Source of the DNA: a virus
IMG/VR virus record: IMGVR_UViG_3300050821_009835
Coordinates: 186,001 to 250,000 of that record
DNA length: 64,000 nt
Reading direction: 5' to 3' (one strand)
This document shows positions 504 to 64,000 of this stretch, piece by piece; positions within the stretch are counted from its first letter, which is position 1, and each line of letters starts with the position of its first letter. The translations under genes and the position numbers were made by a program. The notes below the pieces were generated by a model. It did no database searches and was not told where the DNA came from. It worked only from the letters and a program-made list of their open reading frames with translations.

Positions 504-1121
504 TTACGAGACAGTTGGGGAAGAACTGCCAGGTAGGGGTCCAAATTTAGGTTTGGCCTTTTGTTTTGCTCTAATCTTTTCTATCACTGTCCAGGCTCTA
601 GCTAGTTCTGCTTCTCCAGCTTCATTCATCTCTAACTTTTGGGCATTGCATAAAGCTGAAAGTGTGACCATGACGCCACCAACCTCTTGGAATTTTTCTC
701 CCACAGGGCGATTAAAGACATAGTCCACTAATTTGTGCGCTTCTTCTTGAGTTGTTCCACAGGCCTGAACAAGTTCTAGGGCTTCCTCAAGGAATCTGTG
801 ATTACGTTCCACTTTATCGGTTGCAATCTCTTTGCCGAAGCAAGCATACAACCAATCGCGAACTCTGTTTTGGTAAGATTGTTTCTGAATTGACATGACC
901 ACAAAATTACTGGGCTGCATGGCTTGACAGGACGCGGCTATGTAGGGTACGCTGAGGAGGATCTCTCGTCCAGAATAGAGTTTTGTTGTGGGATCCCATT
1001 CTCTGAGTAATAATTCATCACCAACTTGGTACCCACGGTCGTTTTTGCGTACCTCGAAAGTTTTGGTACCGGATAAGATAGTGGTGAAATAGATAGGCCA
1101 GCATTTCAATTCATGTTTCAT
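504..1121 (-). CDS. DUF3850 (ASCH-like) / MazG-like fusion protein
   Basis: 205 residues. Residues ~1-75 (MKHELKCWPIYFTTILSGTK then TFEVRKNDRGYQVGDELLL) match the DUF3850 group of the PUA/ASCH-like fold, thought to bind RNA or modified bases. Residues ~80-205 look like an all-alpha MazG-type NTP pyrophosphohydrolase, with the E-E-A-x-E-L motif (FLEEALELVQACG) and a later EVGGVMVTLSALC helix where the second acidic pair would sit. MazG-type enzymes hydrolyse NTPs or (p)ppGpp and are common in phages. The fusion with DUF3850 is less usual. It is transcribed against the neighbouring tail operon. Domain calls are by motif; substrate unknown. Confidence 0.7.
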   Translation of the reverse strand: MKHELKCWPIYFTTILSGTKTFEVRKNDRGYQVGDELLLREWDPTTKLYSGREILLSVPYIAASCQAMQPSNFVVMSIQKQSYQNRVRDWLYACFGKEIATDKVERNHRFLEEALELVQACGTTQEEAHKLVDYVFNRPVGEKFQEVGGVMVTLSALCNAQKLEMNEAGEAELARAWTVIEKIRAKQKAKPKFGPLPGSSSPTVS

Positions 1122-9661: not shown

Positions 9662-12481
9662 ATGGCAACTTTGAACCAAACTACGACGAATGCTATACGA
9701 AATATCTCTCAGACCGTTCAAGAAAGAGAGATAGTTAAGACAGCACCGGACATCGTCGTGTTTATTGACGGGCTGCCCTATTTGCTCAATCCATATCTCG
9801 GTAGTGGAGTGGGCAGTACATCAACTTCTGCCCCGCAGAACGGTGTAGATTATACTCTTGTGAATTTCAACAATTACGTTCAGGCATTCAACGCCACTTA
9901 TGACGTTGACAACTTCAAACCTGAGTGTACTGTTAATCTATCTGTCCCCAACCAAGCTAAGTATATGTTTCAGTCACCGGGTGGAGCTAACCTGATTGAA
10001 AGCATGAGCGAGTTACAGGTTTTTGCTAAAAACTATTTTCCAGCAGCAGATGGGAATACGGTCTATACTCGTGTGTTTAAAGGAGTAACTGCTCATATTA
10101 CGCATACAGATACTGGGAAGTCTTTAGAAATCAGCATTCAGGGCTCCGGTGTGTTGCGGTTTTTTGAGCTTATGCAGATAGAGTTGAATCCTTCATTGAT
10201 GACAAATTCTGAGAATCCTGCTCAACCTATGAAGTCTAACCAAGCTGCTTTAGACCCTTATCAACAGATAGCTGACACCTTTAAGCGGGGTATATCTTTT
10301 GAAGGTTTTCAATATTCTTCAATGCTTGAACAGAGAGTCCCAGATAGTGATTTTTCCAATGCAGTCAAAGCTGGATACATCAATAAATGGCAGCCCATCT
10401 TGAATAATATCCGTAAGGACGTTCATATTTTTGGCTATTTTTCAGGATTATCGTCTTTGGACATAAACGCTATTTCAGTCCCGAGCGCAAAAGTGGGGAA
10501 GGCAGGGCCACAGTACCTTCCGATTTCTAATGATAAAATCGGTACTCTTCTGGAGAGTGATCCTTCCCATGATCTGTATGTTAGTATTATTCGCGGCTAC
10601 TTACCCGATTTTTCGATAGGTACTATCAATCTCCTTAACAGTCAGTTTTCTTCTCGCCTTGAGCGAATTCGTACTATTGCTCAAGCTATAGGTTTCGAAG
10701 GATATCAGGATATTAATGGCGAAATCATCATTAAGCCACCGTTGTATAATCTGGATGTGACTAACACTACACCTTTGCCTAACACATCCGCAACTGTGAC
10801 TAATCCGTCATCTCCTAACACTTCTACAGTTCCAAGTCAGGCTACCCAATCTCAGATTTCAGATATTAACAAGAAATTGACAGATCAGAACAATCCATTC
10901 ATCGTTCATTTGTCAGAGATTAGAACAGAATCTGAAACCGAAGACGAACAAGGCATTCGAGCAACTCGTATGACCATTCAACCTGGTTGGGACCGTCAAT
11001 TTATGTATAACGAGGGCACAGGTGGCCTTCGTGAAGCTGTTTATCATATAGATATTGCTAAACTTGCCAAGTTCGGTTTACGAGAGGAACCGCCGCGTAC
11101 TCTTGCTTGGTTGAATAGTGGGGATAAATTCGCAGCTTATGCTTATGCAACCAGTGAATTAAATCGAGCTAACCGAGGATACCGAACTTACCAGATCACC
11201 ATACCGATGCGCCCGGAATTAAAGCTGGGGTTTCCAATGTTTTTTCCCCACCGTGATATGTACGGGTATATTCGTTCTGTCAACATTAGCTACCAGATGG
11301 GCGGGGAAGCCAGCATGAGTATTTTGTTGGATACATTACGCAAGCGGCCAATGTTTCCAGCTACTCACACTCTCTCAGATCAAACTGACCCCACGACTGG
11401 GAAACCCAAGACTGTTACTATTTACACTACACAGCCAAACCTTGTAATGAAGTGGACCGAGCCACCCTCGCCGCCTCCATCATCTTTGAATCAATTGTCT
11501 GGGCAAAGCAATTTGGATGCAGCTACAGCGTTTACACTTGGGCAACCCACAGGAACAACTTCCAGTGATGGGGATTCATGTACCGACAATCCAGCAGTAA
11601 ACCTTGTGGGAAACCCGGCAACTCAGATAGCCTCAACTAATGCTCCAGTTTATCAAGAGCAACTCCAAGTTGTCAATTATCGTCGTTCACAGCTTGGTAC
11701 AACTTGGGGCACTAAGGTGGATACAACAACTAAGAGTTTTCGTGTTCAGAATGATCTTGAAACTCAGGCTCTTTCAAACGGGGTTTCTCCTTACGGCGCT
11801 GGTGGGCAGGGCTACCCGGCATCTGGTGTAAAGCCAAACACACCTTTCTTCTCTAGAGATCGGTGGTTGGCGCAAACTGCCGCGTTAAATCCAGATGGCA
11901 CTGCTGTAATAAACCCGGCAACTGGCCAAAATGTGCCAACTTCTGGCATTAATGCTATCTACTTCGATCGTATTCTTGTAGAACAACCTTATACAGACGA
12001 GAAAGGCTATGAGGTCGTTACACCATTTCCTTGGGGGAGATGGAAGACTTTGCCGGAAGCCTATTCCGAAACCAGGCAAGGCACTATTGTCCCGAATCCT
12101 GACTCACAGACTCAAGCGGTATTACAAGGAGTTAACGCTTTCTTGTTTGCTGGTATGGGAACACCCCAAGGTTCGCTAGAAGCGGGCGGAAACTTGTTGG
12201 ATGCCTTGACAAATTTAACCTCACAGGTTGAAAACAATGATTCCTTCGAACTCGTTCCGGCTACTTCTACTGGGCCTGGGTCAGAGTCTTCAATTTTGAG
12301 CACACAAGAACCGGATCAGCAGCCCAATACGAGTCAGTATTTGAATACGAATACACCAGATCAATCGCAAGCAGCGGTGAATATATTTTTGAGTGGTGCA
12401 GCAGCTCAGAGCACCACCACGAGTTCAATTTTGGACAACATCGAAAATGAGATGGGAAACCCGGTAGGTCCTAATGCTTAA
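9662..12481 (+). CDS. baseplate hub protein (gp27/gpD-like candidate)
   Basis: 939 residues. Residues ~1-560 contain several beta domains; the segment ending FPMFFPHRDMYGYIRSVN then MGGEASMSILLDT looks like the conserved end of hub proteins, where a strand about a defined path on the cell surface precedes a Pro-rich tail. Residues ~560-939 are low-complexity Ser/Thr/Gln/Pro with scattered folded blocks. It precedes and overlaps the spike gene by eight bases, as hub and spike genes usually do. Hub call rests on order and fold impression. Confidence 0.6.
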   Translation: MATLNQTTTNAIRNISQTVQEREIVKTAPDIVVFIDGLPYLLNPYLGSGVGSTSTSAPQNGVDYTLVNFNNYVQAFNATYDVDNFKPECTVNLSVPNQAKYMFQSPGGANLIESMSELQVFAKNYFPAADGNTVYTRVFKGVTAHITHTDTGKSLEISIQGSGVLRFFELMQIELNPSLMTNSENPAQPMKSNQAALDPYQQIADTFKRGISFEGFQYSSMLEQRVPDSDFSNAVKAGYINKWQPILNNIRKDVHIFGYFSGLSSLDINAISVPSAKVGKAGPQYLPISNDKIGTLLESDPSHDLYVSIIRGYLPDFSIGTINLLNSQFSSRLERIRTIAQAIGFEGYQDINGEIIIKPPLYNLDVTNTTPLPNTSATVTNPSSPNTSTVPSQATQSQISDINKKLTDQNNPFIVHLSEIRTESETEDEQGIRATRMTIQPGWDRQFMYNEGTGGLREAVYHIDIAKLAKFGLREEPPRTLAWLNSGDKFAAYAYATSELNRANRGYRTYQITIPMRPELKLGFPMFFPHRDMYGYIRSVNISYQMGGEASMSILLDTLRKRPMFPATHTLSDQTDPTTGKPKTVTIYTTQPNLVMKWTEPPSPPPSSLNQLSGQSNLDAATAFTLGQPTGTTSSDGDSCTDNPAVNLVGNPATQIASTNAPVYQEQLQVVNYRRSQLGTTWGTKVDTTTKSFRVQNDLETQALSNGVSPYGAGGQGYPASGVKPNTPFFSRDRWLAQTAALNPDGTAVINPATGQNVPTSGINAIYFDRILVEQPYTDEKGYEVVTPFPWGRWKTLPEAYSETRQGTIVPNPDSQTQAVLQGVNAFLFAGMGTPQGSLEAGGNLLDALTNLTSQVENNDSFELVPATSTGPGSESSILSTQEPDQQPNTSQYLNTNTPDQSQAAVNIFLSGAAAQSTTTSSILDNIENEMGNPVGPNA

Positions 12482-14861
12482 GAACAACGCTGATTTGTAT
12501 AAGCCGGGGCCGAGTGAACTTTCTCGCGACGACTTGATGTACCAGGTCTTTGCTGCTCGTGTTCTTACCGTAGATTTTGAACGAAAGGTTTGTACCCTTC
12601 AAGATGTACGAACAGGAATAAACTACACAGATATAAACATCTTTCCTGCTACAGCTTCCGCTTTTGAATCTACAGAAATTAGCATGCCAGAACCAGGGAC
12701 CACCTGCATCGCCGCCCCGGTTTGGTGGAGGGGCGGCTATCAACAAATTGCTATAATCGCGTATATGGCAGCCGATATGGATCGCGCTCAGGACGCGATT
12801 GCAGTCCGCCCTATTGAGGGCGTGGAAGGTTACAGTAATCGTCGTCGTGGCACTTACCGTAAAGCATTCTGGGGTCAAAAAACTGTATCCAATGTTTATG
12901 GATACACTGAAAAGATTGATGGAGATTGGGATCGTAGCGGTAAAGATTTTACACGGGATAAGTTAGATTCTGATCGTCGTCAATGGACTCAGATTGCGGG
13001 ACGTCGAGTGGAATACTCCGACGCAGGGGTGGTATTTAGTGGACCGATTAATCGTCCGTCAGCTACTAACATTGCTCCCCGGACTCTCCCTGATGGTACA
13101 CAAGAGTTTGTTTACTATCTCCAACCCGGCGCTCAGGTGCAGGATCGCTATATCAACGGTAAACAAGATGTCATCCCGTTTGCAGAAAACACGCAACGAG
13201 TTCAGGAATATTCGCTTGATTACCCACTGCCTCCTGAAGTTTTAGAGACCCCGTTATTCGATTTTATTCTAGGAACTACGCAGAATCCTTGGAATAGAAC
13301 AACAGTCGGCGGTTTGGCTGTTACAGGTTCTACAGTAGGAACAGTCCAAGCTGACAGTCAAACGTATGTCATCAATCAAGATGCTGATCACCCATACACT
13401 CGAGGAATTCCTACAGTCGGGCCAACAACGAAGGAAGGCCCAACTCCTGCACGACGGGGCTTCATTGTTGAAAAATCTGAAGGAACGTTGGTTGGGTATA
13501 ATCTTTTCGATACGTTCACTTACGGCCAGGTTCTTAAACCTGTCCTTTTCCCGTACACGGTCCCGGGACGTTTCGGTGCTGATGTTGATTCTTCTTACTT
13601 GCCCGTAATTGATTCTACAGATCATATTGAAGCCAGGCTTGCGGCTTCAGCTATGGCAATTCGATTTCCTCAAGAGTACAACACTGTTCGTTGGGATGTA
13701 ACCAAAGAAGGATTTATCTCTTTCGAAATTGGATCAACCCTTCCTAAAGAGAACATTCCCCTACTCCCGGCAAACAGTTACGAACATCCCCATGGTGCGG
13801 GGCGTTCCATGGAAGGCCATCTTGTTGGTTCTTTAAAATTGGTCATTGGTAAGAATCGTGATGAAGAGGATGCCATAGATCTTCAGGCTTTAGGACAAAC
13901 TGTCTTACGGCTCGGGGCCGATGACGCTTCTCTTCCGAACGATCGTCGTTCCGTTATGTCTCAGGAACGTGGAAAGATGGACACTCCTAATGTTAGGAAA
14001 AATCCAGATTTCCCTCAATATTGGTCAAAGGCGCGACTTCAGCCAAACGCAGATGCAGGTACTTACGGCAGTCCGAATTCTAATCAGTTGAAGGCAGGAG
14101 CAGAAAACGTTTCTTTGCGCGTAGCCACTGATGGTGGTATAGTAGCACGATTCGGCGCCAAATCTTCCAATGCTTTGCGCCGTCATTTGATGAACGGGTA
14201 TGCTGATCCGCAAGGAACTCAGTATCAGTCCAGTTCAAATGCTTCACGTGTGGATTCTAAATCCCCAGGGCGTCAATTTTACGCAGCGGGTGATAGCAAC
14301 TACGCCTTCCATGATTTGACACAAGCAGGTGCCCCGGCTGCTACTTTTAATGGGAAACCTGCTGGTTTCCCGCCATATAATGCTAGTGCCTGGTTTGGTA
14401 ATCCAGTGCCAGCAGGCATGGATTCATACGGAAGATCTATAGATATCCACACAGTTGCAGATATTTTAGTCCGTGCTGGTACTAATCCAGATAATCTTCA
14501 ATCTTTATTGGCGGATCTCGCAGGTGGTATCGTCGCGTGGATTGGAGCTGATAAACAGGGTCGTTCTATTACAGCTTCTCTGGACGGCGGCGTTCAGTTA
14601 GTCATCAATAAGAATGGAAAGACTGGTAAAGGTCTTCAACTTCAAATCATTGGAGATGTGGATCTTACTGTTATAGGAAATTGGCATCAGCACGTTACAG
14701 GTGATATCGTAATGGAATGTGCAGCTTTTCGACAGATTACAAAAACTGACCATGTGTTGACGGCCCAGAAAATCATTGAATCAGCCCTTACTAGAATCAC
14801 AAACGAGGCTCCGGAACTTATTCATAACCAAGGACTTTACAGCTCCAATGAAAACTCTTAA
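12474..14861 (+). CDS. baseplate spike / gpV-like protein
   Basis: 795 residues. The N-terminal ~110 residues look like the OB-fold of central spikes (VFAARVLTVDFERKVCTLQD, then EPGTTCIAAPVWWRGGYQQ). The C-terminal end has the repetitive short-strand pattern of a triple beta-helix needle (LQLQIIGDVDLTVIGNWHQH then VTGDIVMECAAFRQITK). Such proteins form the trimeric membrane-piercing tip below the hub. The middle ~500 residues are unassigned and make it longer than typical spikes. Its end overlaps the downstream nuclease gene by 14 bases. Confidence 0.65.
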   Translation: MLKNNADLYKPGPSELSRDDLMYQVFAARVLTVDFERKVCTLQDVRTGINYTDINIFPATASAFESTEISMPEPGTTCIAAPVWWRGGYQQIAIIAYMAADMDRAQDAIAVRPIEGVEGYSNRRRGTYRKAFWGQKTVSNVYGYTEKIDGDWDRSGKDFTRDKLDSDRRQWTQIAGRRVEYSDAGVVFSGPINRPSATNIAPRTLPDGTQEFVYYLQPGAQVQDRYINGKQDVIPFAENTQRVQEYSLDYPLPPEVLETPLFDFILGTTQNPWNRTTVGGLAVTGSTVGTVQADSQTYVINQDADHPYTRGIPTVGPTTKEGPTPARRGFIVEKSEGTLVGYNLFDTFTYGQVLKPVLFPYTVPGRFGADVDSSYLPVIDSTDHIEARLAASAMAIRFPQEYNTVRWDVTKEGFISFEIGSTLPKENIPLLPANSYEHPHGAGRSMEGHLVGSLKLVIGKNRDEEDAIDLQALGQTVLRLGADDASLPNDRRSVMSQERGKMDTPNVRKNPDFPQYWSKARLQPNADAGTYGSPNSNQLKAGAENVSLRVATDGGIVARFGAKSSNALRRHLMNGYADPQGTQYQSSSNASRVDSKSPGRQFYAAGDSNYAFHDLTQAGAPAATFNGKPAGFPPYNASAWFGNPVPAGMDSYGRSIDIHTVADILVRAGTNPDNLQSLLADLAGGIVAWIGADKQGRSITASLDGGVQLVINKNGKTGKGLQLQIIGDVDLTVIGNWHQHVTGDIVMECAAFRQITKTDHVLTAQKIIESALTRITNEAPELIHNQGLYSSNENS

Positions 14862-15693
14862 AACTCAAGGCGTGTATGGCATAACACTGGTTTTGGATGG
14901 CCGTGTGTATGTTGGCAGTTCCAATGAATGTGAACGTCGTTTGCAGGAGCATTTGCATGATTTACGATTGGGAAAACACGAAAATCCCTATCTTCAAAAT
15001 GCTTGGAACAAACATGGGGAGGAGAATTTTCTGTTTGAAATTCTAGAGGTGGTGAAAGACAAGATTTGGCTACGAGCTAGAGAGCAGGCTGGGTTCTCTC
15101 GTTTTCATAGTTGTGACCCTAAATTTGGTTTCAATATCTCAAAAGACGCTTGGTGGGCTAGTGTAAATCATGATCCGGAGACGCTAAAAAGAAAAACTGA
15201 AAAACTTCGACAATATTTGAACCTTCCGGAAGTTAAAGCAAAACGGTCAAAGTTGATGAAAGATGTTTGTAATCGTCCTGGTCAACGAGAGAAATTGCAA
15301 GCAGCGGGAAAATTGACAGCGAAGCCTTTTGAGCTAATAGATCCTAAAGGGAAGAGATTTTCTGGAGTTAATTTAAAGGCATTTTGTTTAGCAAACAACT
15401 TGGTTTACACAAAAATGTGTGGAGTTAATAACGGAGAGTTTGCCTATTCTGGTTGGAAATACCCTTCATTTAATGAAGAAATTCATAAATTAGAGATTTC
15501 CAGAATTCGTTCAAAAGCAGGCATCAAGCGGTACCAGAACCCAAAAGAGCGGGAGAGAGTAGCAAAAAACTCAACCAATTGGCACCATAACCCCAATACT
15601 CTAGAAGCTAGAAAACTTCGTGGATTACACATTAGTCAAAGCAAAAAGGGGAAGAAATTCAATAGAACCTCAGCCTCGGGAGTCGCTGCCTAA
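14848..15693 (+). CDS. GIY-YIG homing endonuclease
   Basis: 281 residues from ATG 14848, which lies inside the end of the spike gene. The GIY-YIG module is at residues ~8-95: GVYGI, then VYVGSS, an arginine about ten residues on (ECERRL), and a glutamate in FLFEILEVV. The remaining basic, helical part with repeated short motifs (NLPEVKAKRSKL, NPKERERVAKNS, NPNTLEARKLRG) is typical of modular DNA-binding tails. These are selfish enzymes that cut DNA lacking the gene. It interrupts the baseplate operon, and its stop overlaps the next start as TAATG. Confidence 0.85.
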   Translation: MKTLKTQGVYGITLVLDGRVYVGSSNECERRLQEHLHDLRLGKHENPYLQNAWNKHGEENFLFEILEVVKDKIWLRAREQAGFSRFHSCDPKFGFNISKDAWWASVNHDPETLKRKTEKLRQYLNLPEVKAKRSKLMKDVCNRPGQREKLQAAGKLTAKPFELIDPKGKRFSGVNLKAFCLANNLVYTKMCGVNNGEFAYSGWKYPSFNEEIHKLEISRIRSKAGIKRYQNPKERERVAKNSTNWHHNPNTLEARKLRGLHISQSKKGKKFNRTSASGVAA

Positions 15694-49463: not shown

Positions 49464-49988
49464 ATGTCAGAAAATAAACTATGGGAAGGCACACGTGGAG
49501 AAGGGTGCCATGGGTTTCCAAGACCGCACGCAGCACCCCCGGATTCCTTTGATCTGGATAAAAAATTTCCTCGAGTCATGATCGCCGCCATTGTTACTCG
49601 TGGTTCTGAAATCTTATTGGGACGTAGTAAGGAGGCTAAATGGGTTATCCCCGGCGGAGAAGTCAAGCCATTTGAATCACTCCCCAACACGATTACACGA
49701 ATCTTAAGAGAAGAAGCAAATGTTGATATTCGCCCCGGTTCGACACTTTTTGTTTCCGAAAATTTCAAACCAGAGATTGATCATCTGATTGCAATATATG
49801 TTGAAGCAGATTACTTGGGTGGGTACCTCAAGGCGGGCGGCAATTTCAAAGATGTTTGTTGGGTGGATGTTCGTCAACTTGGGGATATGCAGGATGCTAT
49901 GAGTCAGCTTACGATTGATGCACTGCACAAATTTAGCCTCATCTTGAAAGCGCGGGCTATTCAAAAGAAACAGAGTGTATTTCCGTGA
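49464..49988 (+). CDS. Nudix hydrolase
   Basis: 174 residues. The Nudix box at ~67-90 reads GGEVKPFESL then TRILREEANVD; the metal-binding EE pair is present, while the first E of the usual REUxEE is Ile. The core starts at about residue 37 (FPRVMIAAIVTRGSEILLGR). The first ~35 residues are an unusual Cys/His/Pro-rich lead-in. Nudix enzymes cut nucleoside diphosphate compounds, e.g. NADH, ADP-ribose or damaged NTPs. Substrate is not evident. It overlaps the next start by GTGA. Confidence 0.8.
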   Translation: MSENKLWEGTRGEGCHGFPRPHAAPPDSFDLDKKFPRVMIAAIVTRGSEILLGRSKEAKWVIPGGEVKPFESLPNTITRILREEANVDIRPGSTLFVSENFKPEIDHLIAIYVEADYLGGYLKAGGNFKDVCWVDVRQLGDMQDAMSQLTIDALHKFSLILKARAIQKKQSVFP

Positions 49989-52484: not shown

Positions 52485-52516
52485 AACGGGTCTCCAGTTA
52501 ATTGGAGACCCGTTTT
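52485..52516 (+). terminator. strong rho-independent terminator
   Basis: Perfect 12-bp stem AACGGGTCTCCA/TGGAGACCCGTT (52485-52496 with 52503-52514), GTTAAT loop, TTTT tail. Its right arm contains GGAG, which could serve as ribosome-binding site for a TTG at 52515. Confidence 0.85.
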
Positions 52517-52532
52517 GCCAGTATTAGATTCT

Positions 52533-53306
52533 ATGATTCAAAAAGCTACAGCCAAAGGTATGCGCCCGTATCAAGAAGATACTTCATTCATTTGTACTCA
52601 TCCTCACGGCGATCTTTTCGGTGTGTTTGACGGTCATGGTGGTCTAAATTGTTCTACATATCTTAGTGAACATTTTCCAGAAGCGTTCATTACACATTAC
52701 GAAGAAGTCTATGGTGATGCATACGAGGATTCTGTCGATGAGAAAGAAGTTTCTTTTTACAAATTTCTATCAAAAGCTGCTATGCGCAAAGCGTTTTATC
52801 AAATGGCAGATGAAACCAAACAGATGAGAAATGGTTCAACGGCCTCTGTGATTTGGGTGTTTCGTAAATTAAATTTTGCTGTTTGTGCGGTAATTGGCGA
52901 TTCTCCTATTATTGTTGGGACTGGTAAAAGGAGCTATCACTTAGGGCCGGATCACAATGCACGTTCCAACACAAAAGAGCGGGAAGCGGCTGAGAAACGT
53001 GGGGCATTTTGGGACGGTTATTATCTGTGCCATAGTTGGCATGGGGGCGGACTTCAAATGAGCCGCGCTTTGGGGGATTGTTCTCTACCGTTTCTTAGTC
53101 GTGTACCTCAAATCTATACTCAAAAGGTGCACGATTTTGTGTTAGTTGGAACGGATGGTATTCTAGACCCAGGGCATAAGAGTCATGATATGGTGCCGGG
53201 TATGGTAAAGGCAGTTCGTGAAGGAGCTACTGCGAATCAAATCGTCGCGACAGCACTCGCAGTTCCCACCGGGGACAACGCCACTTGTCTGATTTGGAGA
53301 CCATAA
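52533..53306 (+). CDS. PP2C-type protein serine/threonine phosphatase
   Basis: 257 residues from ATG 52533; in-frame TTG 52515 is an alternative start with GGAG in the terminator arm. All PP2C motifs are present in order: KGMRPYQEDTS, GVFDGHGG (metal-binding D33), GSTASVIWV, VIGDSP, DHNARSN, LQMSRALGD, FVLVGTDGILD and GDNATCLI. It removes phosphate from Ser/Thr using two metal ions. PP2C genes are unusual in phages; targets could be phosphorylated host defence or signalling proteins. It ends directly at the helicase start. Confidence 0.85.
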   Translation: MIQKATAKGMRPYQEDTSFICTHPHGDLFGVFDGHGGLNCSTYLSEHFPEAFITHYEEVYGDAYEDSVDEKEVSFYKFLSKAAMRKAFYQMADETKQMRNGSTASVIWVFRKLNFAVCAVIGDSPIIVGTGKRSYHLGPDHNARSNTKEREAAEKRGAFWDGYYLCHSWHGGGLQMSRALGDCSLPFLSRVPQIYTQKVHDFVLVGTDGILDPGHKSHDMVPGMVKAVREGATANQIVATALAVPTGDNATCLIWRP

Positions 53307-55226
53307 TTGCAGCTCAACGAGGAACAGCTTCTAGCTGTAGAACATTCCATTGGGAGCCCGGCAGTATTGGTAGCGGGTGCAGGTAGTGGTAAAACAAGAG
53401 TTCTTACTGAACGTGTTCGTTGGTTGATGAAGCAAGGCATTGCCCCTCGCCGGATTTGCGTTCTAACTTTTACTAACAAAGCTGCGGGGGAATTAGTCAA
53501 TCGTTTGGGTCTTGGGCCAGAAGTTCCTCGTGATCAGGTTCCCCGCGTTAGCACAATTCACTCTCTTGCTCTTAGTGCCATTCGTCGCAATCCTCAAGGT
53601 TTTGGCCTTTTGTCTCGTGTTTCCCCACTTGATGAAGGTGATGCGGGCAGTATGATTAAGAAAATCATCGATCGCTTAGAATTAGATGAAAATCAGTGGG
53701 CAATGTTGGAAGTGATAAGTTACCACCGTGCTCGTGGTCTTTGCTTTTCTAGTGACTATACAGATGAAATCCATAAAATCTCGGAAAAGGCGCACGGCGG
53801 TTATCATGCTATGGATGCTGGACGGCTTGCTATCTGGAAGGCATACGAGGCGGAGAAGAAAGCCAATTCCGTAGTTGACTTCGATGATATGGTACATCTA
53901 GTCGTTCATCGCGGTAAAATGGATAGCACCTGGCGCGGGAAACTTGAAAAGACCTTCGAGTTTTTATTGATGGATGAAGCACAGGATACCAACCCGATTC
54001 AATGGGCGTTTGTCAATTTATTAGTTGCACCAGACAATCCAAATCTATATGTTGTCGGTGACATGAATCAGAGCATCTACGGCTTTAATGGGGCTACCCC
54101 GGAACTCCTTAAAGAATACAGTGAGGGTTGGCGCGGTGTTGTTCCTAAACTTTACAAGATTCAACGCAATCATCGTTCTGTCCCCGAAATTGTTAATCTC
54201 GCGAATGCTACCTGCGCTAAAATGACCAATTCGATTCCACTGAAAATGGAATCCTGGCGAGGGATCAATAATGAACATGGTACCACCAAATTGATGAAAG
54301 CGTGCGAACCACGCGACATTGCTGTTCAGATAGCAACAGAAATTTACCATGATGCCAACCTTAAAAAGAATCCCATAGTCTATCGTGACAACGCTGTGTT
54401 AGTCCGTAGCGGTAAGACTCAAGTCCGGGATATAGAAGCTGAGTTGGTAAAGCGGCGCATCCCTTATGTGGTGCGCGGCGGCCTGTCCCTCCTTCAGACG
54501 GAAGAGGTTCGCGATTTGATGGCGTATATGAGGCTCATTGCAAACCCAAACGATTTCATGGCGCTCGTACGGGCTTCAGGTATTCCAAAGCGTGGCGTGG
54601 GGCCGAAGGCGCTAGAGGATATTCGTGATCGAGCCAAGCTACAGCACAGCAATGACTTGGTTGCTGCCAGCGCCAGCGACAAGAAATTGGGCGGTTTCGC
54701 TGCCATGATAAAGAGTCTTGGAGATTACCGAGATGATCCTTTCAAGGCGCTTCAAGAACTCATTCGTCTTCTTAATTATGGTCAGATCATTCAGGATAAG
54801 TACAAGCGTGAACCGGAGCGAGTACAGCAGAAATTGGAGAATATCAATCGTTTACAGATGATGTTTCAAATTCTCCTTGAGGAGAATGAAATGACCATCG
54901 AGGATCTGGTGTTCCAGTTGAGTATGAATAAACAATCTGAGCAATCAAATAAAGACGAAGGGAAGGTTGTCATTAGTACGATCCATTCTGCTAAAGGATT
55001 GGAATTTCGGCGCGTATACGTGACCAATTGTTACGAAGGCTCCCTTCCTCATAAATTTTCAATGGGATCCCCATCGGAAATTGAGGAGGAAAGGCGGCTT
55101 TTTTATGTGGCATGTACTAGGGCCAAGGACAACCTTACACTCTGCCTCCCAGCAATGATTCAACACGGTCCAAATACTACTGCTTTAACTCCCAGCAGAT
55201 TTCTATACGAAATTGGCGTTCACTGA
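53307..55226 (+). CDS. UvrD/PcrA-like superfamily 1 helicase
   Basis: 639 residues from TTG 53307, with GGAG seven bases upstream. Motifs: Q-motif LNEEQLLAV, Walker A AGAGSGKT at 23-30, Ia TFTNKAAGEL, TIHSLAL, Walker B LLMDEAQD, III VVGDMNQSIYGFNGA, IV NHRSVPEIV, V VISTIHSAKGLEF, VI RRLFYVACTRAKDN. It unwinds DNA 3' to 5' in repair or replication. Slightly shorter than UvrD (about 720), lacking the C-terminal tail. Likely the main unwinding enzyme in the window, as no DnaB-type helicase is present. Confidence 0.9.
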   Translation: MQLNEEQLLAVEHSIGSPAVLVAGAGSGKTRVLTERVRWLMKQGIAPRRICVLTFTNKAAGELVNRLGLGPEVPRDQVPRVSTIHSLALSAIRRNPQGFGLLSRVSPLDEGDAGSMIKKIIDRLELDENQWAMLEVISYHRARGLCFSSDYTDEIHKISEKAHGGYHAMDAGRLAIWKAYEAEKKANSVVDFDDMVHLVVHRGKMDSTWRGKLEKTFEFLLMDEAQDTNPIQWAFVNLLVAPDNPNLYVVGDMNQSIYGFNGATPELLKEYSEGWRGVVPKLYKIQRNHRSVPEIVNLANATCAKMTNSIPLKMESWRGINNEHGTTKLMKACEPRDIAVQIATEIYHDANLKKNPIVYRDNAVLVRSGKTQVRDIEAELVKRRIPYVVRGGLSLLQTEEVRDLMAYMRLIANPNDFMALVRASGIPKRGVGPKALEDIRDRAKLQHSNDLVAASASDKKLGGFAAMIKSLGDYRDDPFKALQELIRLLNYGQIIQDKYKREPERVQQKLENINRLQMMFQILLEENEMTIEDLVFQLSMNKQSEQSNKDEGKVVISTIHSAKGLEFRRVYVTNCYEGSLPHKFSMGSPSEIEEERRLFYVACTRAKDNLTLCLPAMIQHGPNTTALTPSRFLYEIGVH

Positions 55227-55255: not shown

Positions 55256-55414
55256 ATGCTCACCGAACCCGGACTCAACACGCTTCAGAGTAGGGAACTT
55301 GCCGACCGAATTGAAGAGGCAGTTGGGCCACTCCGCGAACGTATCCAAGAACTTGAGAGCAAAGTAGAACGTTTAGAACAACAAATTCCCTCATCAGAAA
55401 GTTGGAGGTTTTAG
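55256..55414 (+). CDS. small coiled-coil protein
   Basis: 52 residues with AAGGAG seven bases before the ATG. Helical with a heptad run (RIQELESKVERLEQQI). Its stop is joined to the start of the NMN adenylyltransferase gene, so it is likely in the NAD-salvage operon. Unknown function. Confidence 0.55.
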   Translation: MLTEPGLNTLQSRELADRIEEAVGPLRERIQELESKVERLEQQIPSSESWRF

Positions 55415-56386
55415 TTGAATAAGCCATCTTGGGGCGTAATCGTTGGCCGTTTTCAAGTGCACGAACTCCATGAAGGTCACATGGACTTATTCCGCGCCGT
55501 CATGGGACGCCATAATCGTGTAATTGTTTTTGTGGGTAAGTCTCCGAATGGAATGACCAAACGTAACCCGCTAGATTTCGTTACTCGCAAGGCGATGATT
55601 CAAGCAAAGTTCCCTAATTTTACAGTTCTTCCTTTGATTGATTGTATGACAGACGAGGCGTGGTCTGATTCTCTGGACGCCAAAATCCGAGAGGTTGTTG
55701 ACTATGGCGACGTTACTCTGTATGGGGGCCGTGACAGTTTCGTGCCTCATTACCACGGTGCCTATCCTCCTGTTGAACTCGCTTTGCCTACCACGGAGCA
55801 CATCAAAGGCGAAGACATTCGGGCAAAGTTGACAAATACGATCATCGAGTCCGCTGATTTTCGCGCTGGCGCTATTTACTCCGCGATGAATCAGTGGCCC
55901 AAAGCCATTACTTGCGTGGATGTAGTCATGTATCACTACTCTTGGTCAGATGTGAATAAAAACAATGACGACATGGAGTTCCTTCTCTGCAAGAAATACG
56001 GTGAGCCTGGTTGGCGTTTCGTGGGTGGCCACACTAAACCGATAACTGAGACTTTTGAACAGGATGCCAAAGATGAAGCTAGGGAAGAAGTGGGCCAATA
56101 TCTAACCAAAATGGAGTATATTGGCAGCTGTTATGTTCCCGACTGGCGCTGGGCGGCTGAGCAGGATAAAGTCAAGACGCTCGTGTTCGCCTCCGAGACT
56201 ATGACTCTATCCGCTGCAGCAAAGGACGACATTTCTGAAGCGAAATGGTTTTCTATTCGTGAACTGAAAGAGGGGCTCCTCAACCCGGTTCATCACCCGA
56301 TATTAAAGCTCGTACAAGAAGGATTCAGAAAGGAATTCAAACTATATGCCGCGCCCATTTCAACCGCGTCCGTTGCACAAGACTGA
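55415..56386 (+). CDS. nadM: bifunctional NMN adenylyltransferase / Nudix (NadM-type)
   Basis: 323 residues from TTG 55415 (GGAGG six bases before). Residues ~5-180: NMN adenylyltransferase with GRFQ at 11-14 and the nucleotide-binding H19-x-G-H22, later YGGRDSF. It makes NAD+ from NMN and ATP. Residues ~190-323: Nudix domain with a box GGHTKPITETFEQDAKDEA then REEVG; family members hydrolyse ADP-ribose. The same fusion occurs in cyanobacterial and vibriophage proteins. It overlaps the next gene by 41 bases, and together they make NAD+ from nicotinamide. Confidence 0.9.
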   Translation: MNKPSWGVIVGRFQVHELHEGHMDLFRAVMGRHNRVIVFVGKSPNGMTKRNPLDFVTRKAMIQAKFPNFTVLPLIDCMTDEAWSDSLDAKIREVVDYGDVTLYGGRDSFVPHYHGAYPPVELALPTTEHIKGEDIRAKLTNTIIESADFRAGAIYSAMNQWPKAITCVDVVMYHYSWSDVNKNNDDMEFLLCKKYGEPGWRFVGGHTKPITETFEQDAKDEAREEVGQYLTKMEYIGSCYVPDWRWAAEQDKVKTLVFASETMTLSAAAKDDISEAKWFSIRELKEGLLNPVHHPILKLVQEGFRKEFKLYAAPISTASVAQD

Positions 56387-57776
56387 CAGCTATAAGGTTG
56401 GTCACTGGAGATTCATTGTCCCGGGAACTACGGAGATGCTCTACTACTACGAAGCTCGTGGCGGCGAGTATCCATACACTGTACTATTTGATCTCCAAGG
56501 AAACATTCAACGCAACATCGAAGGTCGTTTCGCCACTCTAACTGATGTTGAGGAGGCAGAATTTAAGGCGGGTCTCCATTTTGGCACGGATCGTGCTTTC
56601 AATAAAGAGGGCTGGCGCCACGTCATCAACAAGCATGGCGGTCACCTACCTTTGGATATCCGCGCTGTGAAAGAAGGCATTCCTGTAGAAGTGAAGAACG
56701 TTATGTGGACAATGAAGAACTCATGCCCTGATTGTGCTTGGGTTCCTGGTTGGACAGAAACAATTCTGGAGCATACCTGGTACGGCTCCGGCGTTGTCAC
56801 CAAATCTCGGTATTCCAAAGAAATGATTGCTGAATTTCTTTCGGGTACAGCAGATGATTTTTCTACTTTGCCTTTTCAGCTGCATGACTTCGGTGGTCGC
56901 GGCGTCACTTGTGATCTACAAATGGGCATCGGGGCAGCGGCTCATTTAGTCAATTTCCAAGGCACTGATACATTGCCTGGTCTAGACTACATTGAGCAGT
57001 TTTATGGGTTTGGAATCGAAAACGAAATGCCCGGCTTTTCTGTATTCGCTACAGAGCATTCTGTCACTACAATGTGGAAACGGGAGTATGAATCCCAGTT
57101 TGTAGAGAACGCTTTGAATGAGGTTCCGTCGGGAATTCTTTCTTTGGTTGGAGATAGCTATGATATCTTCAACTTCACGGCTAATATCATCGGCGGGACT
57201 TACCGCGAACGCATTCGCAATCGAGATGGTAAGGTTGTTGTTCGCCCCGACTCAGGTGATTCAGTTGCAGTAACACTTCGAGTACTTGACATTTTGGCAG
57301 AGAAATTTGGCATTCGTGAGAATGACAAAGGTTACAAGGTTCTCCCGCCCTGTGTAGGTGTGCTGTGGGGAGATGGCATTGATCACTATGGCATTCGAAA
57401 AATTTTGCAGGCCATGAAGGACGCCAAGTGGTCCGCATCTAACATTGTCTTCGGTATGGGCGGAGGGTTGCTTCAGAAGATTAACCGCGATACGCAGAAG
57501 GTTGCTATTAAATGCTGTAATGCGGTAGTCAACGGCGGCCAAGTTGAGATTTGGAAAGACCCCGTTACTGACCCAGGTAAGGCTTCTAAGCGAGGACGCT
57601 TGGCACTTCTGGAAGATTCGAATGACCAATATCGCACGGTGCAATACAAGGATGAAAGGGCGGGTTGCCCATTTGATCTCCTTGAGCCAGTTTTTCTTAA
57701 TGGTGAATTATTAAGATTTCAGAAGTTCCCGGAGATTCGTAAGCTGGCGGAGGTTGTTCTTCCTGTTTACGTATAG
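56346..57776 (+). CDS. nadV: nicotinamide phosphoribosyltransferase (NadV/NAMPT)
   Basis: 476 residues, near the family's usual ~480. Motifs: HKTDSYKVGHW at the N-terminus, LHDFGGRGV, the ATEHSVTTMW active-site histidine, GDSYDIFNF, RPDSGDS for phosphate binding and FGMGGGLLQKINRDT. It joins nicotinamide with PRPP to give NMN, which the preceding enzyme turns into NAD+. This two-enzyme route can restore NAD+ after host NAD-depleting defences (NARP2-type). It begins within the previous gene. Confidence 0.92.
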   Translation: MPRPFQPRPLHKTDSYKVGHWRFIVPGTTEMLYYYEARGGEYPYTVLFDLQGNIQRNIEGRFATLTDVEEAEFKAGLHFGTDRAFNKEGWRHVINKHGGHLPLDIRAVKEGIPVEVKNVMWTMKNSCPDCAWVPGWTETILEHTWYGSGVVTKSRYSKEMIAEFLSGTADDFSTLPFQLHDFGGRGVTCDLQMGIGAAAHLVNFQGTDTLPGLDYIEQFYGFGIENEMPGFSVFATEHSVTTMWKREYESQFVENALNEVPSGILSLVGDSYDIFNFTANIIGGTYRERIRNRDGKVVVRPDSGDSVAVTLRVLDILAEKFGIRENDKGYKVLPPCVGVLWGDGIDHYGIRKILQAMKDAKWSASNIVFGMGGGLLQKINRDTQKVAIKCCNAVVNGGQVEIWKDPVTDPGKASKRGRLALLEDSNDQYRTVQYKDERAGCPFDLLEPVFLNGELLRFQKFPEIRKLAEVVLPVYV

Positions 57777-59200: not shown

Positions 59201-59800
59201 ATGAGTGTCATCTATGGTTTTCGCGGCGCAAATGGTTCTGGTAAATCGACTCTTGTCCGTCAACTCATGAAGCATATTGGCGTTGTAGCTGATCTTACAG
59301 AGCCCTCCGGTAAGGTCTGGGGGTACGAACTCCAGAACAACATCCGTGTCTTGGGTCGATATGAAACTCAATGCGGCGGTGTGGATGCCATAAAAGAAGT
59401 TCGTGTACCCGGTCAGTCCGGATTTGTAAACACTCGAAAGGGAATTACACTCCTTGCCTCTCTAGGGCATGTCATTTTTGAAGGAGTGCTATGGTCAACC
59501 GTTTTCAAGAGTAGCGACCTCATCGCTCGGGCGCTCCCTCAACATCATTTTATCTTTGCCATGCTAGATACCCCGGCTGAAGTTTGCATTGAACGAGTGC
59601 GGGCAAGACGGTTGGAAAAAGGCAATCATAAACCCTTCAACCCACGAGAGCTATTGTCGAAGGTGGAACAGATCCGAAGACGACAAGAAGATTTGAAGAA
59701 AGCTGGGTATGATACTCGGACGATACCGTATCAGTCGGCTTTATCTACGGTATGCGGTTGGCTTGCTGAGGAAGGTGTGTTAATCCAACCGCCAGTTTGA
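59201..59800 (+). CDS. P-loop nucleoside/nucleotide kinase-like protein
   Basis: 199 residues starting right after the previous stop. Walker A GANGSGKS at ~9-16, a strand HVIFEGVLWS, and a lid region rich in arginine (IERVRARRLEKGN). This fits dNMP/thymidylate kinase-like enzymes or polynucleotide-type kinases. Substrate unclear. The last 70 bases overlap the minus-strand ATPase gene. Confidence 0.7.
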   Translation: MSVIYGFRGANGSGKSTLVRQLMKHIGVVADLTEPSGKVWGYELQNNIRVLGRYETQCGGVDAIKEVRVPGQSGFVNTRKGITLLASLGHVIFEGVLWSTVFKSSDLIARALPQHHFIFAMLDTPAEVCIERVRARRLEKGNHKPFNPRELLSKVEQIRRRQEDLKKAGYDTRTIPYQSALSTVCGWLAEEGVLIQPPV

Positions 59801-60363
59801 GACGGAAGTAGGTTTGTGCTTTCCCAAGATTTTACAACCTTCAGCGCCCAATTGATAAGCTGCTCATGCCCTTCGTCGTTTCCTTTGATTTCCAAGTTGA
59901 AAGGCTTACCAATTATTTCTCGAATCTTTGGTTCTAAGGCAGCTGCCTGCTCTTCTGTTTCTCGACGTTCTCCAGCGCGATAGGCATGTGCGCGCTGGAT
60001 AAAGACGTTGTAAGTACCATGGCCATTCAAATGGTAATAGGTTGCGCAATTTTCTAGAAGTGCTTGTAATTCTTTATGGTAGGGAAGATGCTCAGAGTAC
60101 AGAGAACCCTGCTGAAAAGGGCATTCTGCGATTGCAATATCAACCCTAAATCGTTCAAGCCGTTTCACACGCTCGAATTGCAAAGCACTAATAAGAAACT
60201 GATTGTCATCCAGTTGACAGGTGGATTGACTGTACATGTGCTCTCGAGCTTGTTCCCCAACTAATTCAACATGGTAGTGAGCTTTTTTAAAAGCAAGGAA
60301 AAGGGCTGCGGCGGCAGTTGTTTTCCCACCTCCCGGTGGAGACCACAAGTTAAAAAGTAGCAT
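59731..60363 (-). CDS. AAA_28/NadR-kinase-like P-loop protein
   Basis: 210 residues from ATG 60363 (TTG 60372 in frame). Walker A SPPGGGKTTAAAA at ~8-20 is followed by VELVGEQAREHMY, the E-x-A-R-E pattern of the AAA_28 group, which includes the ribosylnicotinamide kinase domain of NadR. Then IAECPFQQGSLY and YHLNGHGTYNVF. It might phosphorylate nicotinamide riboside, which would fit the nearby NAD genes, but it could act on another substrate. Convergent with and overlapping the plus-strand kinase. Confidence 0.6.
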   Translation of the reverse strand: MLLFNLWSPPGGGKTTAAAALFLAFKKAHYHVELVGEQAREHMYSQSTCQLDDNQFLISALQFERVKRLERFRVDIAIAECPFQQGSLYSEHLPYHKELQALLENCATYYHLNGHGTYNVFIQRAHAYRAGERRETEEQAAALEPKIREIIGKPFNLEIKGNDEGHEQLINWALKVVKSWESTNLLPSQTGGWINTPSSASQPHTVDKAD

Positions 60364-60403
60364 GAAACCCAATACCGGAATCTTCTACAGGAGCAATTTT
60401 TAA

Positions 60404-63453: not shown

Positions 63454-63519
63454 GGCGATTAAGACCATACCTATCAATGCGATACTCTCGAGTATGAGTC
63501 TTTCTGTCTTGTAAGTCAT
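63436..63519 (-). CDS. 27-residue single-pass membrane peptide
   Basis: ATG 63519 overlaps the stop of the PARP-like gene as TAATG, so it is probably translated by reinitiation. Reads MTYKTERLILESIALIGMVL and ends in LLAWR: one hydrophobic helix. It overlaps the end of the opposing nuclease gene. Function unknown; it may anchor or accompany the PARP-like protein. Confidence 0.45.
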   Translation of the reverse strand: MTYKTERLILESIALIGMVLIALLAWR

Positions 63520-64000
63520 TAGTTGAATTCGACCAGATAGCGGATATTCGCTTGCGACGTACGATAGACAATTTGCTCGTCGTTGATTACGCCAGAGCGA
63601 CCCGGCTTGGCCCAGCAAGAATCATAACCGAGGCGTTTGCCGTTGCCGCTACCGCTCGGGATGTACTCCTTGCCCATCGCCACGTCAACCATGAACATGT
63701 AGCAGTTCTTGTCACGCGACCCGCCGTCCCAGTAGCCGTATGCATAATTTAAACTTTTTGTGCTCATCGCGGAGAAGTAGAGACCAGTCCCATACATCGC
63801 CCCTGTGGTTTGAACCGTGCTCAATTCGGTGGGCAAAACAAATCCACGTTTCAAAATCGAAAGCACATTGAACATGCGAGTGCCATGCCACAAAGATTTG
63901 ATGTTACCAACCTTCTTACCGTCAGCATTAAAGGCCGCTTCCATGTGCGGGATGCGAACTTCGTATACACGAACCGGGCGAAGATGTGAGCACTCGTGAC
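63519..64000 (-). CDS. PARP-like ADP-ribosyltransferase, C-terminal part
   Basis: The frame is open to the window edge (at least 160 codons), so the N-terminus is missing; the first ATG inside is at 63944. Counting from that ATG: the catalytic histidine in LWHGT (H20), MYGTGLYFSAM, the K-S-L-N-Y-A-Y stretch, YMFMVDVAMGKEY, and the glutamate block NDEQIVYRTSQANIRYLVEF, which mirrors the NEYIVYD..Q.N..YLL end of PARP1. So the H-Y-E triad looks intact. It transfers ADP-ribose from NAD+ to protein or nucleic acid. NAD-salvage genes lie 6 kb away. Target unknown. Confidence 0.85.
   Translation of the reverse strand, partial: HECSHLRPVRVYEVRIPHMEAAFNADGKKVGNIKSLWHGTRMFNVLSILKRGFVLPTELSTVQTTGAMYGTGLYFSAMSTKSLNYAYGYWDGGSRDKNCYMFMVDVAMGKEYIPSGSGNGKRLGYDSCWAKPGRSGVINDEQIVYRTSQANIRYLVEFN

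Follow-up and report, generated by a model that had tools for sequence, protein, structure and literature searches.

Two overlapping genes of a jumbo-phage contig encode an NMN adenylyltransferase fused to a Nudix domain (NadM-Nudix) and a NAMPT-type nicotinamide phosphoribosyltransferase (NadV), as identified by their family matches, active-site motifs, fold, and linkage, and their pairing is conserved across highly diverged phages. The two genes most probably form a translationally linked salvage module leading from nicotinamide through NMN to NAD+, which would maintain or replenish NAD+ in the infected cell, also when host NADases attack it.

Organization of the locus

The window, that is, the whole stretch of 64,000 nucleotides that was analyzed, corresponds to bases 186001-250000 of a viral contig of 264,912 bases in total, a 265-kb jumbo-phage contig in which five tRNA genes, a family A DNA polymerase, and other phage genes were found. 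The features considered here, in window coordinates, are as follows:

49464-49988, + strand: separate Nudix protein (Pfam NUDIX, E 9e-11)
52515-53306, + strand: PP2C-type protein phosphatase (Pfam PP2C, E 2e-19)
53307-55226, + strand: UvrD-type helicase (helicase motifs in the sequence; synteny)
55256-55414, + strand: small coiled-coil-like ORF of 52 aa with a good RBS, its stop abutting the nadM TTG
55415-56386, + strand: nadM-nudix, 323 aa, TTG start; putative NMN adenylyltransferase with C-terminal Nudix domain
56346-57776, + strand: nadV, 476 aa, ATG start; nicotinamide phosphoribosyltransferase, NAMPT type
56346-56386, + strand: 41-nt overlap of nadM-nudix and nadV, from the gene coordinates
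59731-60372, - strand: P-loop kinase of the AAA_28 type, 213 aa, single domain
63519-64877, - strand: WGR-PARP gene, 452 aa (63519-64000, the C-terminal part, lies in the window)

The overlap of 41 bases reported in the first-pass annotation was confirmed, with both genes on the + strand, and the nadV start region, together with an SD-like AAAGGA, is located within the nadM-nudix coding sequence. The TTG start of nadM-nudix has an RBS (GGAGG) 5 nt upstream and is preceded by a stop codon, and starting at the next in-frame ATG would cost the GRFQ motif. Position 55256, from which the pair had previously been taken to extend, begins the separate 52-aa ORF and not nadM. This small ORF has no relatives among the 62 distinct NadM-Nudix loci described below, in which its slot is filled by other small ORFs, and it was rejected as a module member for this lack of conservation. 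The candidate promoter that had been proposed to precede the pair was likewise rejected: the scan yielded no promoter-like site ahead of the pair, and the count for the region was at chance level (11 sites vs 10.7 +/- 3.3 in shuffled sequence). Because the UvrD gene lies on the same strand and ends (55226) 29 nt before the 52-aa ORF, read-through from it is likelier than transcription of the pair from a promoter of its own.

The UvrD-type helicase stays beside the NAD module in relatives. Directly upstream of it is the PP2C-type phosphatase, for which no PHROG match was found and whose position is kept in many relatives. A DUF3850/ASCH-domain protein, encoded at 504-1121 (- strand), lies ~51 kb from the phosphatase and helicase genes in the window, and its relatives adjoin PP2C and UvrD in related phages. 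Within positions 59201-59800 of the window, a kinase that scores above the cut-off for HMUDK_HMUD1, the family of 5-hydroxymethyl-dU DNA kinases, hints at DNA hypermodification.

NadV is a NAMPT-type phosphoribosyltransferase

NadV matched the Pfam families NAPRTase (E 3e-43) and NAMPT_N (1e-20), the PHROG nicotinamide phosphoribosyltransferase (E 1e-141) and, above its cut-off, an NCBIfam PRTase equivalog, and aligned end to end with solved NAMPT chains in the PDB, with E-values down to 8e-118. The motifs GTDT (residues 206-209), TEHS (236-239), RPDSG (300-304), GDGID, and GGGLLQK are aligned with those of NAMPT. Work on human NAMPT has established what these motifs do in catalysis and in the choice of nicotinamide as substrate, and both the Asp of GTDT, which confers specificity for nicotinamide, and the catalytic His of TEHS are present in the phage protein. 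The dN of NadV is about 0.11, compared with 0.37-0.67 in its neighbors, with fourfold sites saturated (0.68-0.69), and the enzyme is thus under strong purifying selection. A recent bacterial source was rejected, given that no match in a bacterial or archaeal genome exceeds about 46% identity. Among cultured phages, NadV is found in 1907 records.

The NadM-Nudix protein

The Nudix half of the partner protein was firmly recognized by Pfam (NUDIX, E 2e-10); the match of the N-terminal half to CTP_transf_like was weak and under the cut-off (E 0.0018). An AlphaFold2 model built from 58 relatives reached a pLDDT of 88, and its six best Foldseek hits were all six PDB chains of the Francisella and Synechocystis NadM/Nudix proteins. 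Overall TM-scores with these chains were about 0.43 and the rmsd was high, which suggests that the orientation of the two domains differs from that in the solved structures.

The motifs include GRFQV..LHEGH and KGEDIR in the NadM domain and E..EAREEVG in the Nudix domain. The fold and the GRFQV...LHEGH signature of NMN adenylyltransferases are present, whereas the ISSTxxR-type motif (usually SGTxxR) reads KGEDIR, with the Arg kept and the Ser/Thr lost, and two extra residues, common to the relatives, are inserted in the H-motif region (GRFQVHELHEGH). Because of this insert and the KGEDIR substitution, the adenylyltransferase might work slowly. The Nudix box (E-x7-DEAREEVG) retains the metal-binding Glu residues expected of a fused Nudix domain, with the box Arg replaced by Asp, and E221, E224, and E225 are nearly invariant among 58 NadM-Nudix sequences. 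In cultured phages, this NadM-Nudix type was found in only 17 records, including the acidobacterial jumbo phage Tunturi_5. Since tblastn searches with it gave no hit to KVP40-like phages, the protein represents a distant subfamily of adenylyltransferase-Nudix proteins.

Conserved pairing in uncultured giant phages

When IMG/VR was scanned using the alignment of NadM-Nudix proteins, 222 relatives were recovered, from which 80 loci, 62 of them distinct, were kept. Within the fetched stretches, nadV is encoded on the same strand as nadM-nudix in 58 of the 62 distinct loci, lies at most 120 nt away in 44, and overlaps it in 21. Most close relatives show overlaps of 14-35 nt, mostly 23, often with an SD-like AAGGAGG within nadM, immediately ahead of the nadV ATG. 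Some loci lack an overlap, with gaps of 15 nt (locus L036), 1575 nt (L030), and 117 nt (Tunturi_5). NadV was present somewhere in 31 of the 32 longer NadM contigs searched, the exception being a 26-kb fragment, so that the two genes reside in one genome and NadM does not occur without NadV outside that fragment; this count agrees with the published statement that NadV is present in all phages that carry NadM (PMC9503650). Dozens of diverged phages show the same gene order with the two genes close together, so the arrangement is not due to chance.

Signs of NadV exchange behind a resident NadM-Nudix

The window NadV shares 84% identity with the NadV of loci L036, L041, and L049, compared with 47-50% for NadM-Nudix and 41-57% for UvrD from the same loci. 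Conversely, the nearest relative by both NadM and UvrD (L027; 61% identity each) has a NadV only 43% identical to that of the window. Trees of NadM and of NadV are in strong conflict: a clade uniting the window with L036, L041, and L049 is rejected by the NadM data (p-AU 1.7e-4), and grouping of the window with L027 is rejected by the NadV data (p-AU 7e-44). Because these groups were picked after the identities had been seen, the p-values do not have the meaning that they would have in a test fixed beforehand. Locus L033 carries a third NadV type, grouping with the NadV of Tunturi_5. There are, then, signs that nadV was replaced in place. Any such exchange would be old, because the fourfold sites of NadV are saturated, and recent transfer of nadV was rejected on the same ground as the cause of the 84% identity. 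It is conceivable, although speculative, that the nadV slot, which is occupied by at least three NadV lineages, is an exchange site at which NadM-Nudix is kept and NadV is swapped for distant alleles, perhaps because hosts inhibit NadV or because NadV must suit the nicotinamide and PRPP levels of the host.

A predicted route from nicotinamide to NAD+

In the proposed pathway, NadV would combine nicotinamide with PRPP to give NMN, the NadM half would convert NMN and ATP to NAD+, and the Nudix half would hydrolyze a dinucleotide, probably ADP-ribose or excess NAD+. With the nadV start lying within nadM-nudix, one message would yield both enzymes. A host NADase would cut NAD+ to nicotinamide and ADP-ribose, and since NadV uses the nicotinamide set free in this way, the pair would restore the NAD+ pool. 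Phage salvage through NadV and NadM and its role in countering NADases have been described (PMC9503650, PMC7824862). From family knowledge and the NARP2 literature, we infer that the two proteins are catalytically active, translationally coupled, and involved in counter-defense.

A WGR-PARP gene and a possible metabolic role

Because the window ends at position 64000, within the PARP gene, the first-pass annotation covered only part of the gene that it linked to NAD+ salvage. The full-length product is a genuine WGR-PARP, with a PARP catalytic domain (E 2e-20) containing the His-Tyr-Glu triad (motifs HGT, GLYFS, and NDEQIVY) and an N-terminal WGR-like region that scored just under the cut-off (E 0.0013). 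Full-length relatives are present in cultured phages, some of them annotated as PARP.

These observations bear on the alternative that the module serves phage metabolism, supplying NAD+ to the PARP and other enzymes or for redox needs in a host that grows slowly, and not counter-defense. The WGR-PARP gene is located 5.7 kb downstream of nadV, and a NADAR domain is encoded in the contig, indicating that the phage probably consumes and processes NAD+ itself; furthermore, similar WGR-PARPs were found in 2 of 31 other NadM contigs (G028 and G030), at most about 13 kb from the NAD genes, so that such proximity is seen in three contig lineages, the window's included. However, 25 of the 32 contigs carrying the module show no PARP match at all, and the gene is missing from most close relatives. 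We regard a purely metabolic role as a tentative alternative, and the metabolic and counter-defense roles are not mutually exclusive.

In the cultured phages XacN1, RAS14, and FBKp34, WGR-PARP and NadV are separated by tens to hundreds of kilobases, and in Cellulophaga phage phi17:2 no NadV match was found; linkage between PARP and salvage genes was accordingly rejected as a general rule. Since the query alignment itself drew on two of the three lineages, the IMG/VR PARP loci do not test the linkage independently. Thus, the link between PARP and the NAD genes is suggestive in this set and not general. If it holds in broader sampling, phage NAD+ synthesis would be tied to the phage's own ADP-ribosylation.

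Contig G030 (162639-176618; loci L097, L128, and L134) harbors, within 14 kb, NadM-Nudix, two more Nudix matches, a PRTase (a frame of 391 codons), a PRPP-synthetase-type gene, and the WGR-PARP, a cluster that may represent a NARP1-like or PRPP-supplied pathway beside a PARP. Frames of 5490, 3886, and 2682 codons, each with PARP/ART-like and Nudix matches, were observed in contigs G001 (115837-126330; loci L010, L012, and L013), G003 (168827-173836), and G010 (12354-15368), and frames of 3348 (G006) and 3662 codons (G011) contain a Nudix match. These very long frames resemble polyvalent proteins, possibly packaged in the virion.

The neighboring kinase and Nudix genes

The kinase encoded at 59731 had been described as NadR-like; its fold resembles those of NadR and thymidylate kinase equally. 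In the comparison of its model (pLDDT 81), the second-look structure list is headed by NadR (Z 15.5, rmsd 3.2 A, 170 residues aligned), which is tied with thymidylate kinase (Z 14.7); thymidylate kinases lead in Foldseek, where NadR is not among the best 50 rows, and the best phmmer hit is an APS kinase. The only family match is AAA_28, whose cut-off the relatives of the kinase exceed, and no match to a NadR family model was found. Because it has no adenylyltransferase domain fused to the kinase domain, the protein does not qualify as a NadR, although it may still phosphorylate nicotinamide riboside. In that case, the locus would hold a two-entry salvage set, in which the kinase phosphorylates nicotinamide riboside to NMN and NadM then adenylates NMN. 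In each of the six close-relative contigs, the kinase gene is retained on the opposite strand, with nadV on one side and gene 60404 on the other, which fits this scheme, as do the AAA_28 scores and the first-ranked NadR structure; yet the tie with thymidylate kinases, the lack of a NadR family match, the location on the opposite strand, and the absence of the kinase from several clade members that carry the pair make it unlikely. The kinase co-occurs with the NadV lineage of the window in 6/6 cases and with other NadV types in 1/6 (Fisher p 0.015, for cases that are not phylogenetically independent).

The separate Nudix protein at 49464 does match the Nudix family, as the first-pass annotation had noted, but its box, RILREEANV, is degenerate, with one catalytic Glu missing, and a relative is present in only one of the six close-relative contigs (L015), with an also degenerate box (RTILQKTGV). 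It is doubtful whether the protein takes part in clearing. The contig additionally encodes, outside the window, the NADAR domain and a third Nudix protein, at contig positions 137170-137550 (- strand) and 59259-59591 (+ strand), which are further candidates for ADP-ribose processing; no macro domain was found in the contig.

Thus, of the full set for making, using, and clearing NAD+ that had been envisaged, the PARP is real and the kinase is kept in close relatives, whereas the PARP is patchy, the Nudix protein scattered, and the NadR assignment ambiguous. Relatives do keep some of these genes beside the salvage pair, which does not in itself establish a functional link.

Alternative phosphoribosyltransferase chemistry

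NARP1 uses Namat with the partner Adps (PMC12774641), and the phosphoribosyltransferase of the window could in principle be such a Namat, using ADP-ribose pyrophosphate instead of PRPP. NARP1 resembles the window pair in the catalytic core of the phosphoribosyltransferase, which Namat shares with NAMPT (PMC12774641), and in presumed purpose. However, Namat has no need of an NMN adenylyltransferase, the partner encoded in the window, and no Adps-like, PRPP-synthetase-type domain (PF13793) was matched in the 264,912-base contig, which may be incomplete, so that the locus as it stands does not qualify as NARP1. In addition, the best PDB matches of NadV are PRPP-using NAMPTs, and GGGLLQK is kept where the Namat clamp mutants F392G/Y396K suggest NAMPT residues, by our inferred mapping of positions; Namat chemistry is therefore highly improbable. 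That the two genes persist as a functionless relic, as some motif substitutions in NadM-Nudix might suggest, is scarcely credible given intact frames, pairing conserved across very diverged phages, and the low dN of NadV.

Comparison with known systems

The nicotinamide-to-NAD+ module proposed here has its best-known counterpart in Vibrio phage KVP40, in which NadV and NatV, an NMNAT-Nudix protein, represent the same enzyme types with the same reaction order in a phage of jumbo size. The two NadV proteins are 39.6% identical; in the window, the two genes are adjacent and overlapping, in contrast to KVP40. The bacterial NadM/Nudix proteins of Francisella (2qjt/2r5w) and Synechocystis (2qjo) share the order of the two domains and the fold with the phage protein, from which they differ by an identity of only 15-17%, the two-residue insert in the H-motif, and SGTxxR in place of KGEDIR.

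A similar arrangement is present in Tunturiibacter phage Tunturi_5, in which a cytidyltransferase (ORF218) and NadV (ORF217) follow the same order on the same strand, with 38% (NadM) and 39% (NadV) identity to the proteins of the window and a UvrD-type helicase nearby. The two loci differ in that the Tunturi_5 genes are separated by a gap instead of overlapping and that its NadV comes from another lineage.

The first-pass annotation equated the two proteins with the enzyme pair of NARP2, a pathway that reportedly runs through NMN, and this comparison stands: the composition fits the NadV plus NadM/NatV route, and no Adps-type domain accompanies it in the contig. NARP2 is named as a pathway that counters NADase defenses by replenishing NAD+ (PMC11984713, PMC12028318), a role that the pair in the window may share.

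The enzyme pair itself is already known in jumbo phages (PMC7824862, PMC9503650). What is new is its wide conservation in uncultured giant phages and the overlap architecture common there, which extend the known cases by many giant phages, most of them uncultured, that encode NAD+ salvage as a tightly paired, often overlapping two-gene unit. The signs of in-place exchange of NadV are a further detail that is new relative to the known phage pair and offer an opportunity to test the swapping of enzyme alleles within a candidate counter-defense module.
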